From positions 1-44,222 of the forward strand of contig QNYQ01000020.1 of the NCBI GenBank assembly GCA_003978665.1: a stretch of DNA of 44,222 nucleotides. The letters are read 5' to 3'. Origin of the DNA: Hyperthermus sp. (lineage in GTDB: Archaea > Thermoproteota > Thermoprotei_A > Sulfolobales > Pyrodictiaceae). Below the pieces are notes generated by a model, which saw only the letters and a list, made by a program, of their open reading frames with translations, had not been told where the DNA came from and searched no databases. The translations under genes were made by a program, and so were the position numbers. The stretch's first letter is position 1. The number at the start of each line of letters is the position of its first letter. Positions 9,729 through 16,205 of this stretch are shown piece after piece.

Positions 9729-11030
9729 TCACATGTACCCACGTAACTGCATAGCCTCAACCACCCGTTTAACTGCCAGGGCGTACGCAGCGTCTCTCAT
9801 AGTATGCTTGCCGGGGTCAAGCTCACTCTCCCAGAACTTCCACACGGCCGCGAGATTACTTGACATTTTGTTTTCAAGGATCCTTAGCGCTTCTTCCTCC
9901 GTTATATAGTTGCCGATGCGGTTATTCATCCACTCGATATGACTTACTATGACGCCTCCAGCATTAGCTAATATATCCGGTATTATTACTACATGTCGCC
10001 GCAATGAGAGAAAATACGATGCATGCTCTGTCAAAGGACCATTTGCACCCTCTACTATAAGCTTCGCTCTCACATCACTCATATTCTCCTCGGTTATCAC
10101 ATGCTCTATTGCAGCTGGCACGAGCACATCTACGTCAAGGCTGAGTAGTTCTTCATTGCTTATCCTCTTCTCCACATGCCTATAGTAGATTACTGAGCCT
10201 GTTGAGCTCTTAGTCCTCTTGACGGCTTCGGGGTCTAAACCCTTAGAGTCAAAGACTCCGCCTTTACTATCACTTACAGCTACTATCTTGGCTCCCATCT
10301 CATGGAGAAACTTTGCCGCGTAATAGCCTACATTCCCATAACCCTGTACTGCAACTGTTTTTCCCTCAATAGTACCCCATAGCCTCTTTGCTGCCTCTCT
10401 CGCGACCACTGCAACTCCGAAGCCAGTGGCATATGTTCTTGTAGATAATCCACCCAAGACTTTGGGTTTTCCCGTAACAACACTTGCAGCATTCCGGCCC
10501 GTCAGCCTATAATACTCGTCCAGAATCCACGCCATTACCTGCTGGTTCGTATACACATCCGGCGCTGGCACATCCTCGTCCGGACCCACATACTTATATA
10601 TCCCTCTAACATACCCGCGCGTCAACTCCTCCAACTCTCTTACACTAAGCTTGCGAGGATCGACTCTAACACCGCCCTTACCCCCACCGAAGGGTAAGCC
10701 TGCAAGCGCATTCTTCCAGGTCATCATCATGCTTAAGGCCACTACATCGTCAACGCTCACTGAGGGATGAAACCTAACACCGCCCTTGTAAGGGCCTAGC
10801 GCACTATTATGCTGGCTCCGCCAGCCCACAAAAACCCTGGAGCCTTGGCCGGGCGATCTAACGATAATCTTTACCTGTATGACCCGCTCTGGTAACCTAA
10901 GAACCTCGTAAACGTTATCGTCAAGCCCTAAAAGGGATACCACCCTCCTTAACACATTCTCTTGGTCGCTGAGGAAGGACCTTGAAGAAGCTGCTCCCCT
11001 AGCCTTTCCCGGATTCAAAGCCTTCTCCAC
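9729..11030 (-). CDS. gdhA: Glutamate dehydrogenase
   Basis: 433 residues, the usual length for hexameric archaeal GDH. Motifs are LGPYKGGVRFHPSVS, the active-site Lys in PFGGGKGGVRVDP, PAPDVYTN (catalytic Asp region), the Rossmann loop GYGNVGYYAA and PAAIEHVIT. It interconverts glutamate and 2-oxoglutarate plus ammonia, a central step in peptide-using hyperthermophiles. The start is GTG. No SD is close, and a TATA-like TTTTACC stretch about 25-30 bases upstream (minus sense, near 11060) suggests a leaderless or nearly leaderless message. Coenzyme choice (NAD or NADP) is not clear. Confidence 0.95.
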   Translation of the reverse strand: MEKALNPGKARGAASSRSFLSDQENVLRRVVSLLGLDDNVYEVLRLPERVIQVKIIVRSPGQGSRVFVGWRSQHNSALGPYKGGVRFHPSVSVDDVVALSMMMTWKNALAGLPFGGGKGGVRVDPRKLSVRELEELTRGYVRGIYKYVGPDEDVPAPDVYTNQQVMAWILDEYYRLTGRNAASVVTGKPKVLGGLSTRTYATGFGVAVVAREAAKRLWGTIEGKTVAVQGYGNVGYYAAKFLHEMGAKIVAVSDSKGGVFDSKGLDPEAVKRTKSSTGSVIYYRHVEKRISNEELLSLDVDVLVPAAIEHVITEENMSDVRAKLIVEGANGPLTEHASYFLSLRRHVVIIPDILANAGGVIVSHIEWMNNRIGNYITEEEALRILENKMSSNLAAVWKFWESELDPGKHTMRDAAYALAVKRVVEAMQLRGYM

Positions 11031-11186: not shown

Positions 11187-11636
11187 TTGGGGCAAACGGG
11201 TAAGGGACTTGTTGAGGGAACAGTCGTGGTTATAGACCTGGACAAGTTTGAGCAAGTGGTGGCTGAGAGAGGGTGGAGTGAATACGAGCCTAACCCTGCT
11301 ACAGCTCTGCTAACAGAGCTTGTCAAAGCGTTTACTTCAAAATGGAGCGCCTACGTGGTTTACGGGCTTGACGAGGAGAGGGGTACCGAGGAGGCTGTAA
11401 TTGAAGTGCCTTTCACTGAGCCGGACGAGCTTCTAGAGGATCTCAGGGAGATAAAGAGAAGGATCAATGGGCTTGGAGTGGGTGTAACTATTGTGGCTGT
11501 AAAAGGCTATGTAGGACTGATACAACGCACAAGGAATAGGCGAGCAGCCTATAAGGCAACGCCAACAAGGCGTTATGCCCTTAGATTGCTGCGAAATGCG
11601 AAGAGAAAGGGAGGCAACATCATAGTGGTTGCATAG
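11187..11636 (+). CDS. Small single-domain protein resembling a degenerate GGDEF/Cas10 palm
   Basis: 149 residues. The order of elements matches nucleotidyl-cyclase (GGDEF, Cas10 palm, GTP cyclohydrolase III) folds. VVVIDLDKF (13-21) resembles the first strand with two metal-binding Asp. YGLDEERG (59-66) sits where GGDEF/GGDD occurs, about 42 residues later, followed by AVIEVP. GVGVTIVAV (97-105) resembles the VTxSxG strand, and ALRLLRNAKRKGGN (131-144) resembles the AxxALYxAKxxGxN ending. I infer a palm-like domain; activity is uncertain because the second motif is not GGDEF. The start is TTG. No CRISPR or cas gene is nearby. Confidence 0.75.
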   Translation: MGQTGKGLVEGTVVVIDLDKFEQVVAERGWSEYEPNPATALLTELVKAFTSKWSAYVVYGLDEERGTEEAVIEVPFTEPDELLEDLREIKRRINGLGVGVTIVAVKGYVGLIQRTRNRRAAYKATPTRRYALRLLRNAKRKGGNIIVVA

Positions 11637-11665: not shown

Positions 11666-13792
11666 CTAGAATAAAAACTCGAGCACCAGTCTAGCAGTAA
11701 TGGACAGGAGCGTGGCTACAGCGATAGAGTACACTAGGGAGGCTGATGTTATCTTTAGGCTGCGGGTCTCCGCATATATGCTAGCTAAGGTAGCAATACA
11801 CGGCATGTAGAGGGTTACCAGTATTAGCAGTGGGATAGACTGGTAGGGCTCAAGCTTGTACGCCTTAAGCGTGGCCACATGTCCTTCTTCAGTAGGCTTG
11901 GCAGGAGAAACTGCTGCAAGAGAGTCTAAGAAAACCTCTTTGGCTACAAGACCGTTAAGGAGGCTAAAACCAATTCTCCATGAGACGTCGTCATCAACCC
12001 CAGCCACGAGCTTAGCGTAGCCGGAAAGCTTTCTTCCAACCAGGGCTGCATAGCTGTCCTCAACGTTCTCCCAGGAAACATAGCCTTTGGGGCCATAGTT
12101 TGACAGGAACCAAAGGGCTATGCTTGCGAGCATTATTATGGTTCCGGCTCTCACTATGAAGTGTTTAAGCTTATCCCACGTAAGCCACCAGACAACCCTG
12201 AGGCTGGGAGTCTTTAGGCGTGGAAGTTCAAGTATTAGTTCTGTGGCTTCAACCCTCTCAATCCTAGTCACAAGCCTTATTGTGAGCAAGTGGAGTAGGA
12301 TGGCTATCATGTATACTGTAAACGCTACAATAATTCTCATTACACCATGAAAGTAGGCTATCGAAAAAGCCATTATTACCGTGTAACGTGCCGTGCATGG
12401 TATAAAGGGGGCTGCCATGATCACTGCTATGCGCTCCCTATAGGTATCCATAATTCTTGTAGACAATACACCTGGAACATTACAGCCAAAGCTTATCAGT
12501 GCTGGAAAAACCGCCTTACCGCTAACGCCGAAACGGCGGAAGACCTTATCCATGCCGGCTGCTATTCGAGGTAATAGGCCCGAATCCTCAACCATGGCTA
12601 CAAGCGCCATGAAAACTCCAATCAACGGTATGAAGGATACGACAAGCCCAACCCCATAACCTGAAGAGAATATACCCTTACTTAGCAAGTCAGCAAGCCT
12701 TGGATCTGGTGCGAGCCCAGCTATCTTCTCAGCCAACCAGTCCATGAAGCTTGCCGTTAAGCTTACTGGATTATAGGCTGATATAAGCTCCGAGAGGCCT
12801 TTAAGGCCTAGCTTCCGCGCTATAATGTCTAGGGGTGAACCTAGCGCAATTAGGTAGGCCAGTGTAAACAGTGATAGGAGTGTTGCGAAGCTGATTACTG
12901 GACCTATCACGGGATGTAGGTATAGGGTGTCTATTTTGCTTACCTTTACCTCGCTCTCTCTTGGACTCTTGACTTTTACGAACTTAGAGTAGAGTTTACT
13001 GATCTTATTGTACCGGTCGGTTATGATGTCTAATTCGATCTCAGCGCTACTTTTTATGCCTAGCACGTTTCCGAGCTTCTTAATAATAGCCTCGTAGTCT
13101 TTGACGTCGATCAGCTTCTTCAGACGACTCCTAGCCTCCTCTATGTTAAGAATAAGCTGTAGAGCCAGTCTCTCGGCAACAGCCCTGCTTAAGCCCCTTC
13201 TCACTAAGAAATCCCTTATCTCATTGTATGCTTCACTGAAAACTGGGGGTACCAGAAGCTCTATACGCGGCTCAAGCTTGAGCCTACCCTTACATAACCT
13301 CAGCATTAGTTCTTTCAGCTCCGAGAGCCCTATGCCTTGGAGAGCGCTGATCTCGACTACGGGTACACCAAGCGTCTCGGAAAGCCCTTTCACATCTACA
13401 CTTATCCCCCTCTCTTTCGCCTGGTCGATTTTCGTTAACGCTATAACCACGTTATCGTATAGTTCTAAGACCTCTAGGGGAAGGTAGAGGCTTCTCTCAA
13501 GGTTGGTAGAATCGGCAAGCACGATTACCGCATCGGGCTTATTTCGTGAAATGAACTCTCTAGTCACCCTCTCCTCAGCGCTTGCACCCTTAACGCTGTA
13601 GACCCCTGGAAGGTCTACTAGGCATATCCTCTCGTTGCCTATAGTTATCTTAGAGTAGTCTATGGCTATTGTAGCGCCAGGCCAGTTCGCTACCATGCTA
13701 CTTGAGCCTGTTAATCTATTAAATAGTGTTGTCTTACCAGAGTTTGGGGCTCCTAAGAGCGCTATTACGCATTTGCAATCGCTGCCTTGCAT
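11666..13792 (-). CDS. feoB: Ferrous iron transporter FeoB
   Basis: 708 residues. The N-terminal G domain has GAPNSGKT (14-21), the G2 region with Thr around NWPGATIAI, DLPGVYS (60-66) and LTKID (119-123). It is followed by a helical spacer and a C-terminal membrane domain with gate-type repeats (PLIGVFMALVAMVEDSGLLPRIA, FGCNVPGV and PCTARYTVI). Fe(II) crosses the cytoplasmic membrane through this protein, gated by GTP. No FeoA gene adjoins it. The promoter holds a 16-base palindrome (13828-13843), possibly a metal-responsive operator. The start ATG is clear. Confidence 0.95.
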   Translation of the reverse strand: MQGSDCKCVIALLGAPNSGKTTLFNRLTGSSSMVANWPGATIAIDYSKITIGNERICLVDLPGVYSVKGASAEERVTREFISRNKPDAVIVLADSTNLERSLYLPLEVLELYDNVVIALTKIDQAKERGISVDVKGLSETLGVPVVEISALQGIGLSELKELMLRLCKGRLKLEPRIELLVPPVFSEAYNEIRDFLVRRGLSRAVAERLALQLILNIEEARSRLKKLIDVKDYEAIIKKLGNVLGIKSSAEIELDIITDRYNKISKLYSKFVKVKSPRESEVKVSKIDTLYLHPVIGPVISFATLLSLFTLAYLIALGSPLDIIARKLGLKGLSELISAYNPVSLTASFMDWLAEKIAGLAPDPRLADLLSKGIFSSGYGVGLVVSFIPLIGVFMALVAMVEDSGLLPRIAAGMDKVFRRFGVSGKAVFPALISFGCNVPGVLSTRIMDTYRERIAVIMAAPFIPCTARYTVIMAFSIAYFHGVMRIIVAFTVYMIAILLHLLTIRLVTRIERVEATELILELPRLKTPSLRVVWWLTWDKLKHFIVRAGTIIMLASIALWFLSNYGPKGYVSWENVEDSYAALVGRKLSGYAKLVAGVDDDVSWRIGFSLLNGLVAKEVFLDSLAAVSPAKPTEEGHVATLKAYKLEPYQSIPLLILVTLYMPCIATLASIYAETRSLKITSASLVYSIAVATLLSITARLVLEFLF

Positions 13793-13893: not shown

Positions 13894-15051
13894 TCAGGCT
13901 GAAATGTTCTCCTTCAAGCCGCCTAGCTCGGTGAGGGGGGCCTGCAAGAATACCGTGTCTACATCTATTGACGAGTATTCCTCCCACGCTATACTTGAAC
14001 CATCAATTAACTGCTTCAGCAGCTCCTCTATCCTAGACGCGTTAAGCTGGCGTAGTACCAGAGCCTTCTGGTAAAGCTTACTAAACGCTTTACTCAACCC
14101 GTTATAGCCGTGAAAGTTCTCTGAGACGAACTTAAGAACCCATGCATTGAAAATTGCTCTAGCTTCGAAACTCTCTACGAGATCCTCGTAGGTTACATCT
14201 ATAGTCCTTGAAGCCATATCAAGATACTTCGCCAGGATCTCCTCCTCCTCGCCTTTAAGTGTAGCCGGACCGAAAGAAACCTTCCTACCACTCACATGTC
14301 TCTCGCCCAGCCCTGGTATGATGATTTTCCCGTAAGCCGCCTTTAGCCTCCATGTCTGCGTGTCGCCGCTCTCGACACCAATAATCCTCAACAGGGGTAT
14401 CATAGTGGCTGACGCCAATCCTAACGCGTGTAACCTGCCCTTCCATAGTTTACGGAGAAGAGCAAGGAATAGAAGAGCCTTCTCACGGGAACCCCGCCCC
14501 GACTTCTGCATAACGTAGGGTATAAGACCCCCGGCCGCAGCTATCTCAGCATAGGAGTCGTAGACAGCCAATTGCAGTCTAAGAGAGGCATCAGTTGATA
14601 GGTGAAAGACTGGTATCAGCCTCCCTTCGTCAACAAGATGCCTTAATTTATGGGAGAGCTTAGTGAAGCTGTTTATTGAACGAGTTATATACCACGCCCT
14701 CTGCTCAAGGGATGCTTGCGGGCCGGGAGGATAGTCAAGACTCACATAATAGTCGGCATCCACCCTACTATAGAGTTCAGCTATTTTACTGGGGTCAATT
14801 TGTCTCAGCACATTCCTTCTCTTTCCGCCACCATTACCATTAAGGAATTGATAGCCCCCACTGTCAATCCACAACTCAACATCATCAGGAAGGTTGAGAA
14901 GTTTCCGAAGCCCCCTACCTCTAATCTTGTATGTATCCCCCCTCATTAACAAGTCGTAACTACTTACCATTACGGCTCTTATATCCATATAAAGCCAGGG
15001 CTGCACTGTAGTTGTAAGCGGTGTTCCAAGAATTAACGTGAAGCTCCTCAT
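13894..15051 (-). CDS. TGT-like transglycosylase (archaeosine TGT/DpdA superfamily), no PUA domain
   Basis: 385 residues. WIDSGGYQF (61-69) matches the substrate-pocket SDSGGYQ of tRNA-guanine transglycosylases. Asp106 (SLDYPP) fits the second base-binding Asp, and Asp230 (VESGDTQTW) fits the nucleophile position before a strand ending in GKIIIPG. AAGGLIPYV (172-180) resembles the family Gly-Gly loop. Archaeosine TGT is usually much longer because of C-terminal PUA-type domains, and has a CxCxxC...H zinc site. Neither is visible here, and the protein has no Cys. It could modify tRNA, or DNA like DpdA, or another target. A TATA (TTTTATC, minus sense, near 15090) lies just upstream. Confidence 0.72.
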   Translation of the reverse strand: MRSFTLILGTPLTTTVQPWLYMDIRAVMVSSYDLLMRGDTYKIRGRGLRKLLNLPDDVELWIDSGGYQFLNGNGGGKRRNVLRQIDPSKIAELYSRVDADYYVSLDYPPGPQASLEQRAWYITRSINSFTKLSHKLRHLVDEGRLIPVFHLSTDASLRLQLAVYDSYAEIAAAGGLIPYVMQKSGRGSREKALLFLALLRKLWKGRLHALGLASATMIPLLRIIGVESGDTQTWRLKAAYGKIIIPGLGERHVSGRKVSFGPATLKGEEEEILAKYLDMASRTIDVTYEDLVESFEARAIFNAWVLKFVSENFHGYNGLSKAFSKLYQKALVLRQLNASRIEELLKQLIDGSSIAWEEYSSIDVDTVFLQAPLTELGGLKENISA

Positions 15052-15371: not shown

Positions 15372-16205
15372 TCAGGGCATGTAAGTGTACTTTCTGTTGG
15401 GTTTCACGCCAATATCCAATAAGAACTTCAGCCTTCGCTTAACACTCGAGTAAAGGACAAGAGGCTCCAGCTCAACTAGCCCCAATACTTCCTCACTGAT
15501 CTCTGTAGCAAGTCTTTCAAGAAGAGACCTCCAACATTTTTCTGTCCCAAAACCCATGAATAATGAAAAGTGGAAGCTAATGTTATTTTCGTAGAGGAGT
15601 TTGATTGCTTTTAGAGGTAAGTGAAAGAAGCGTGAATCGGCGCCCGTTAATACTTTAAACCATTGTGAATTACATGCCTTGAGCGACACGCGTACATGAA
15701 TCCTCCCGAAACCATTCAGAGCTTTGACGCGTGAGGGATATGCGGCTAGGAGGATCCCATTGGTCTCCAGGACAAATACGACCTTGGGATCCTCGTTTTC
15801 GATGTGACCTATTAGTTCTAGCAAATGTCTCCAACCAAGCGTGGGCTCACCTGCTGATAACCGTACTATGTTGTAGCCTTTACTTCGAGCTATTGAAAGT
15901 AAGATCCTAGATGCTTTAGCCGGAGATACGAAAAAACCTATGCGGGGATCGTCACGAGGCCTTCCTGTCCAACAGAAGATGCAGCGAAGATTGCAGAGGA
16001 CTACATCGCCGACCGCACTCCCACCGTAAAAGCGGCTGGCCCTAAAACGGTAGTATTTTCTATCTAGGCCTCTCACCACCCTCTTCTCTAGGATCTCGGA
16101 GAGTTTCACGGGATCGAAACCCTTCAGTCTTTCAGCAGCTAACTCAGCCACTCTGTCAGCTTCGCCAGCAGCGTTGCTGGCAGCGTAGCTCACTTCAGTC
16201 ACCAA
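15372..16205 (-). CDS. Radical SAM protein, function unknown
   Basis: 277 residues. CNLRCIFC (71-78) is the CxxxCxxC that binds the 4Fe-4S cluster, and SAGEPTLG (117-124) is the SAM-contacting GGEP-type motif. FVLETNG and IHVRVSLKA continue the TIM-barrel strands. It resembles activating-enzyme-like archaeal radical SAM proteins (COG2108 type). It is larger than QueE and lacks an obvious SPASM or second cluster. The start is TTG; an alternative lies further in. It sits between the TGT-like and DUF89 genes on the same strand, so a role in modified-nucleoside chemistry is possible but unproven. Confidence 0.85.
   Translation of the reverse strand: MVTEVSYAASNAAGEADRVAELAAERLKGFDPVKLSEILEKRVVRGLDRKYYRFRASRFYGGSAVGDVVLCNLRCIFCWTGRPRDDPRIGFFVSPAKASRILLSIARSKGYNIVRLSAGEPTLGWRHLLELIGHIENEDPKVVFVLETNGILLAAYPSRVKALNGFGRIHVRVSLKACNSQWFKVLTGADSRFFHLPLKAIKLLYENNISFHFSLFMGFGTEKCWRSLLERLATEISEEVLGLVELEPLVLYSSVKRRLKFLLDIGVKPNRKYTYMP

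Follow-up and report, generated by a model that had tools for sequence, protein, structure and literature searches.

The palm gene and its flanks

The window, that is, the whole stretch of 44,222 nucleotides that was analyzed, carries a short ORF predicted to encode a GGDEF-type palm protein. The ORF and the sequence elements discussed below are as follows:

11187–11636, + strand: reading frame for the GGDEF-type palm protein (149 aa, starting with TTG and counted with its stop)
11235–11243, + strand: DLD (residues 17–19), end of strand 1, with the presumed metal ligand D17 (alignment, model, hhalign)
11292–11303, + strand: N-x2-T (residues 36–39), start of helix 2, family-specific (invariant in 80/80 rows)
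11379–11393, + strand: RGTEE (residues 65–69), whose acids E68/E69 stand where GGDEF domains have GG(D/E)EF (alignment, hairpin of the model)
11601–11618, + strand: KRKGGN (residues 139–144), counterpart of the AKxxGRN of GGDEF domains (alignment, hhalign)

The original prediction had claimed a 149 aa ORF at 11187–11636 with the motifs VVVIDLDKF, YGLDEERG, GVTIVAV, and ALRLLRNAKRKGGN; the ORF was present there, and all four motifs were found in the window protein. The ORF is flanked by a gene for glutamate dehydrogenase (9729–11030, − strand) and by feoB (11666–13792, − strand), both confirmed by Pfam. As both flanking genes are on the − strand, the palm gene stands alone on the + strand. The start codon is uncertain: the TTG at 11187 was the sole in-frame start leaving strand 1 whole, and the next one, the GTG at 11226, would cut strand 1.

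Strong relatives (E ≤ 1e-30, almost full length) were detected in 31 of 58 related genomes, the raw tally of 32/58 being lowered by one since the match in genome G047 (0.005) was counted as spurious. Changes at codon positions 1/2/3 relative to four near relatives were 38/24/91, 35/22/84, 39/26/88, and 39/27/88, and this richness in third-position changes indicates that the window protein is under selection. Judged from these sequence comparisons, the window ORF is a real gene and not a chance reading frame.

Spread and inheritance of the family

Alignment A1, the 30 rows of which were chosen without a motif criterion, revealed invariant D17, D19, G29, N36, T39, G60, RGTEE (65–69), and K139, among others. 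A genome scan gave 80 loci in Pyrodictiaceae, other Desulfurococcales, Acidilobaceae, some Sulfolobales, Methanomethylicota, Geoarchaeota, Theionarchaea, and the Asgard groups Loki-, Heimdall-, Jord-, Frey-, and Sigynarchaeota. A second alignment of 45 diverse rows, A2, was the basis of a family profile. With this profile, exactly one copy was found in each of 40 of the 397 Thermoproteota genomes (weakest match 4e-30), and one match each in 2 of the 115 genomes of the Theionarchaea phylum and in 9 of the 148 Asgard genomes, the latter set including genomes that were sources of the profile. These matches (40 + 2 + 9 = 51) were not picked by exact motif, and 39 of the loci were read. In one Thermoproteota genome (G044), the only family member is located at 1.178 Mb.

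The tree of 78 rows, which omits L107, L116, and L122, was broadly taxonomic. The three Heimdall rows grouped together, a second group united Jord, Frey, and Sigyn, and the Loki and Theionarchaea rows were long branches of unsure placement. As far as the aligned sequences go, inheritance of the palm gene was shown to be broadly vertical with one copy per genome, and the pattern suggests a core gene that individual lineages retained or lost rather than a mobile one. Its members share the signature DLD...N-x2-T...GTEE...AKRxGGN, which marks them as one conserved subfamily in archaea. The palm protein thus belongs to a conserved family and is not an isolated oddity, which could not be seen from the window alone. 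In Acidilobaceae-type members (L080, L087, L096, L100, L106, L107, and L116), an N-terminal tail with PSLTxT precedes strand 1; this tail is absent from the window protein.

Active-site residues

D17 and D19, which hhalign aligned to the DxD of GGDEF domains, and the GTEE element were each found in 80/80 rows, an invariance that is partly due to selection because the scanned loci were picked via patterns containing GLDxxRGTEE or DLDxF. GTEE was also present in 39/39 of the profile-matched loci read, all of which satisfy the pattern DxD..N..T..GTEE by which they were located and many of which come from genomes with A2 rows. The longer RGTEE was kept in 36 of these 39 loci, and three Asgard profile matches had His or Glu in place of its Arg, with GTEE retained. 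K139 was found in 79/79 rows having a residue at that position. L122, which has an in-frame stop, was left out of the column counts.

Eight residues after the first Asp, 8/8 E. coli GGDEF domains carry an Asn, which we take from the PleD structure to be the guanine-reading residue. Passages of PMC12657218 are consistent with this assignment. Asn occurred at this position in 0/80 family rows, being replaced by Val (50), Thr (14), Ile (6), Met (6), Ser (3), or Ala (1), and GG(D/E)EF, the other hallmark of a canonical diguanylate cyclase, was likewise absent from all 80 rows. In addition, the Arg of GRN was changed to Gly in 76 of 77 rows. According to passages of PMC2904730, metal in GGDEF domains is bound by the Asp on strand 1 together with the acids of the hairpin, and the metal site of the family is assigned by analogy with these. 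The acids are invariant, but the guanine Asn is missing and the GRN Arg has become Gly, suggesting that the metal center was kept and the guanine pocket lost. By this analogy, NTP chemistry other than c-di-GMP synthesis would be expected.

Predicted fold

The window protein was modeled with AlphaFold2 and alignment A1 (pLDDT 91.9, pTM 0.87). The model consists of a strand (9–18), two helices (21–28 and 37–53), and a hairpin (56–59/69–75), followed by a helix (79–94), a strand (100–109), and a helix (126–140). Among the matches listed by a Foldseek search of the PDB with this model were adenylyl cyclases of class III, several GGDEF domains, mCpol 9pd0, and Cmr2. In VIA comparisons, where rows less than 1 Z unit apart count as ties, the window model matched the class III cyclase 5d0e (Z 12.7, 2.8 Å, 124 aligned), the GGEEF domain 6eib (Z 12.5, 2.7 Å, 122 aligned), DosC 4zvh (Z 12.2, 3.0 Å, 124 aligned), and mCpol 9mnr (Z 12.0, 2.5 Å, 110 aligned).

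A second AlphaFold model, of a Freyarchaeota member (A3), reached a pLDDT of 92.5. GGDEF domains ranked first in its fold search (SadC at 4.7e-6, WspR, and DosC), and VIA gave Z 13.7 for DosC 4zvh (2.9 Å, 131 aligned) and 13.5 for mCpol (2.4 Å, 111 aligned). No structure of GTP cyclohydrolase III (GCH III) was among the 50 matches listed for the window and Freyarchaeota models. Both models confirmed a predicted nucleotidyl-cyclase/GGDEF palm fold, like that of GGDEF domains, cyclases, and mCpol, and so bore out the earlier suggestion, for which structure prediction had been named as a check, of a minimal palm protein of GGDEF/Cas10/cyclase type that stands alone. As modeled, the palm has acids at the end of strand 1 and on the hairpin, as is characteristic of the GGDEF superfamily. 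The predicted fold by itself does not separate GGDEF domains, class III cyclases, and mCpol.

Assignment to the GGDEF branch

Profile comparison was more discriminating. In hhalign, in a comparison set that left out mCpol, A2 matched eight E. coli GGDEF domains with a probability of 97.1 (E 7.8e-11, 123 columns), with DLD paired on DxD, GTEE near GGDEF, and AKRKGGN on AKRRGRN. The probabilities were 1.4% for 20 GCH III proteins and 1.3% for 13 Cas10 palms, and the controls gave 1.4% (TBP) and 0.1–0.7% (six other unrelated families); the E values for GCH III, Cas10, and the seven unrelated families were 0.036–0.63. Kinship with GCH III or Cas10 was rejected at the sequence level, as both stayed at control level. 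The GGDEF/Cas10 palm likeness proposed at the outset is thereby refined: of the comparators, GGDEF matched by sequence, and Cas10 and GCH III did not.

Searches of the 45 A2 members were consistent with this. In NCBIfam, the GGDEF model TIGR00254 matched 14/45 members (best 1.2e-7), SiaD 15/45, and PRK09894 10/45 (best 1.6e-8); Pfam GGDEF (PF00990) matched 12/45 (best 1e-4), and PF22335, searched as a test for Cas10, matched 1/45 (0.0012). Class III adenylyl/guanylyl cyclases are among the best fold matches of the window model (5d0e); their families were absent among the Pfam and NCBIfam matches listed for A2, whereas GGDEF models were present. Single-sequence searches of Pfam and NCBIfam with the window protein gave nothing useful, PHROG matches were weak and scattered, and BFVD returned diguanylate cyclase-like matches plus weak ones. 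PDB sequence matches to designed proteins, de novo TIM barrels among them, were taken as composition artefacts; because they score at least as high as the GGDEF match 3ign, hhalign was relied on instead. Together, the window protein is placed in the palm branch of the GGDEF domain superfamily by profile homology over the whole domain.

Across whole genomes, PF00990 found nothing in 151 Thermoproteota genomes, in line with the expectation that canonical GGDEF domains are rare in Crenarchaeota, and nothing in 12 gene-bearing genomes either. This failure of the Pfam model is a possible reason for the family having escaped notice.

Comparison with known palm proteins

Two described archaeal GGDEF relatives, MK0296 of Methanopyrus kandleri and APE1864 of Aeropyrum pernix, are the likely counterparts of the window family. 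Passages of PMC2904730 describe a small family of such relatives in archaea, with MK0296 as its type, as predicted to be active from three acidic residues and untied to signaling domains, and a passage of PMC1183210 describes MK0296 and APE1864 as truncated GGDEF-like sequences. The window family is very probably this family. Those passages on MK0296 and APE1864 mention neither its wide Asgard/Desulfurococcales spread nor its GTEE element nor the loss of the guanine Asn. A literature search, out of whose reach most subscription journals lay, found no functional study of the family, which, as far as this search shows, seems to be in print only as passing mentions.

The family shares with the bacterial diguanylate cyclases (DosC, WspR, PleD) the fold, a full-length profile match, the metal positions, and AK..G.N. 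It differs in having GTEE for GG(D/E)EF and GGN for GRN, in lacking the guanine Asn and a sensor domain, and in residing in genomes without EAL; EAL phosphodiesterases were found in 0 of 56 related genomes.

Genomic context

The gene had been described as lacking CRISPR context, and this held: the flanks are glutamate dehydrogenase and FeoB, no array-like repeat was found in the window, and no Cas10 palm was matched in the source genome (61% complete). Among 56 genomes, 14 had both the gene and Cas10, 17 the gene only, 12 Cas10 only, and 13 neither, a distribution indicating no association between the two. No CRISPR-cas context was thus seen in the neighbors, the array search of the window, or these 56 genomes.

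In the genome set examined for TBP, it lay within 2 kb of the gene in 12 of the 14 gene-bearing genomes outside the taxonomic family of the window; in the two exceptions it was 65 kb away (G026) or on another contig (G287). Inside that taxonomic family, TBP was near the gene in 0 of 6 genomes, and the source genome had no TBP match. TBP was rejected as an operon partner: it is often adjacent, but the orientation varies (same strand on either side, convergent, or divergent), indicating that the two genes do not form an operon. A metallophosphoesterase near the gene in 32 of 81 loci was also rejected as a partner because it stands beside TBP also in genomes where the searches found no copy of the gene (e.g., G049, G020, G040, G029, and G160), and is thus a neighbor of TBP. 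The pair of calcineurin-like phosphoesterase and TBP is conserved across the order (loci L215–L244), genomes without the palm gene included. In 6 of 81 loci, each from Asgards or Methanomethylicota, TgtA overlapped or abutted the gene. In 5 of 81 loci (L088, L123, L127, L128, and L130, the last with PF13263), which belong to Methanomethylicota, Lokiarchaeota, and Heimdallarchaeota, the gene is immediately followed by one for a PHP-type protein; as a partner this protein is a lead only. No stable operon partner, signaling-pathway neighbor, or recognised effector neighbor was found in the loci examined.

Three other neighboring ORFs were noted. The window encodes at 13897–15051 (− strand) a 385-aa protein with a DSGGYQ stretch, which we take to recall tRNA-guanine transglycosylases (TGT). 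It had no Pfam family at 1e-4, a PADLOC TGT value of 0.012, and no PDB relative at 0.1; it may be a divergent enzyme of TGT type that is conserved across 7 loci of Pyrodictiaceae. A radical SAM protein (PF04055) is encoded at 15375–16205 (− strand) and lies near the palm gene in 7 Pyrodictiaceae loci. At L202 (Asgard genome G635), a 201-aa ORF on the strand opposite the family member presumably reads, by motif, as an RSH/SpoT-type HD hydrolase, a possible nucleotide-hydrolase neighbor at this one locus.

Proposed function and alternatives

We propose, with a probability of roughly 55%, that the window protein is a single-domain palm of the GGDEF branch, single-copy and vertically inherited, that acts as a metal-dependent nucleotidyl cyclase or transferase and does not make c-di-GMP. 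D17 on strand 1 and E68/E69 on the hairpin would hold Mg ions, and K139 would bind phosphates. Two subunits, or one subunit and another partner, would face each other and link or cyclise nucleoside triphosphates, releasing pyrophosphate. The product would be a linear nucleotide or a cyclic mono- or dinucleotide, most likely not c-di-GMP because the guanine-reading Asn is never present and canonical GGDEF and EAL domains are absent around it. Having no sensor domain, the enzyme would be constitutive or controlled via expression, and its role would be housekeeping rather than defence.

The origin of nucleotide messengers in archaea is for the most part poorly understood, and the family offers a conserved single-copy palm with an intact predicted metal site. 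According to passages of PMC8646023, most archaea probably rely for cAMP on a class of cyclase still to be discovered and have almost no GGDEF proteins. If the palm protein is an enzyme, many archaea would carry an unrecognised nucleotidyl cyclase, and the family bears on how bacterial GGDEF signaling relates to archaeal palms. A bolder version, that this is the missing archaeal cyclase class, making a cyclic mono- or dinucleotide (not c-di-GMP) in Desulfurococcales, Acidilobaceae, some Asgards, and Theionarchaea and founding a second-messenger pathway common to Thermoproteota and Asgards, is rather unlikely; even if true, it would not explain cAMP in organisms without the gene.

The palm may instead be a non-catalytic GGDEF derivative that binds nucleotide or RNA, its metal and phosphate contacts sensing an NTP, an alarmone, or an RNA end like degenerate GGDEF domains, which we consider possible but doubtful. 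Loss of both the base-reading Asn and the GRN Arg would fit nucleotide binding without turnover, the Pfam model of the degenerate GGDEF_GdpP domain matched 8 of the 45 A2 members (best 0.0015), and neighbors such as TBP and TgtA belong to information processing. However, acids are invariant at both metal positions, which would go beyond the usual need of binding.

A metabolic role like that of GCH III, in which the palm would hydrolyse or rearrange a purine nucleotide and make no signal, is quite unlikely. GCH III is also a stand-alone, single-copy archaeal palm enzyme, and its profile (PF05165, 246 positions) found no match in the source genome (61% complete). However, GCH III has two palms per chain, sequence affinity to it did not exceed the controls, and the gene co-occurs with GCH III in several genomes (e.g., G005, G007, G024, and G044). 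Replacement of GCH III by the palm gene was ruled out by this co-occurrence. Replacement of Thg1 was rejected in the same way, as 16 of the 31 gene-bearing genomes hold Thg1 too; the Thg1 profile PF04446 had no match in the source genome.

The mCpol/OptS proteins of Panoptes are minimal stand-alone palms of similar size and fold, and mCpol 9mnr matched both models (Z 12.0 for the window, 13.5 for Freyarchaeota). That the palm is a defence polymerase of this kind, or a Cas10 palm gone astray, and produces an antiviral cyclic nucleotide is nevertheless very improbable: the palm gene has no defence context, follows a vertical pattern with a single copy per genome, and shows neither association with Cas10 in the 56 genomes nor a recognised effector neighbor, and no defence model of PADLOC 2023, a version whose coverage of mCpol is unconfirmed, fitted the window protein.

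That the gene is a relic, as had also been considered, or a spurious ORF is scarcely credible despite its small size, its TTG start, and the stops in one distant relative (L122) and one genome (G287), given substitutions rich in third positions, invariant motifs with active-site acids in every member read, a single-copy gene under selection, and open frames in 39 of the 40 profile matches in Thermoproteota genomes. The in-frame stop in L122 (Tiamatella) and the TGA inside the match on contig C20 of G287 each reflect a pseudogene or a sequencing error.
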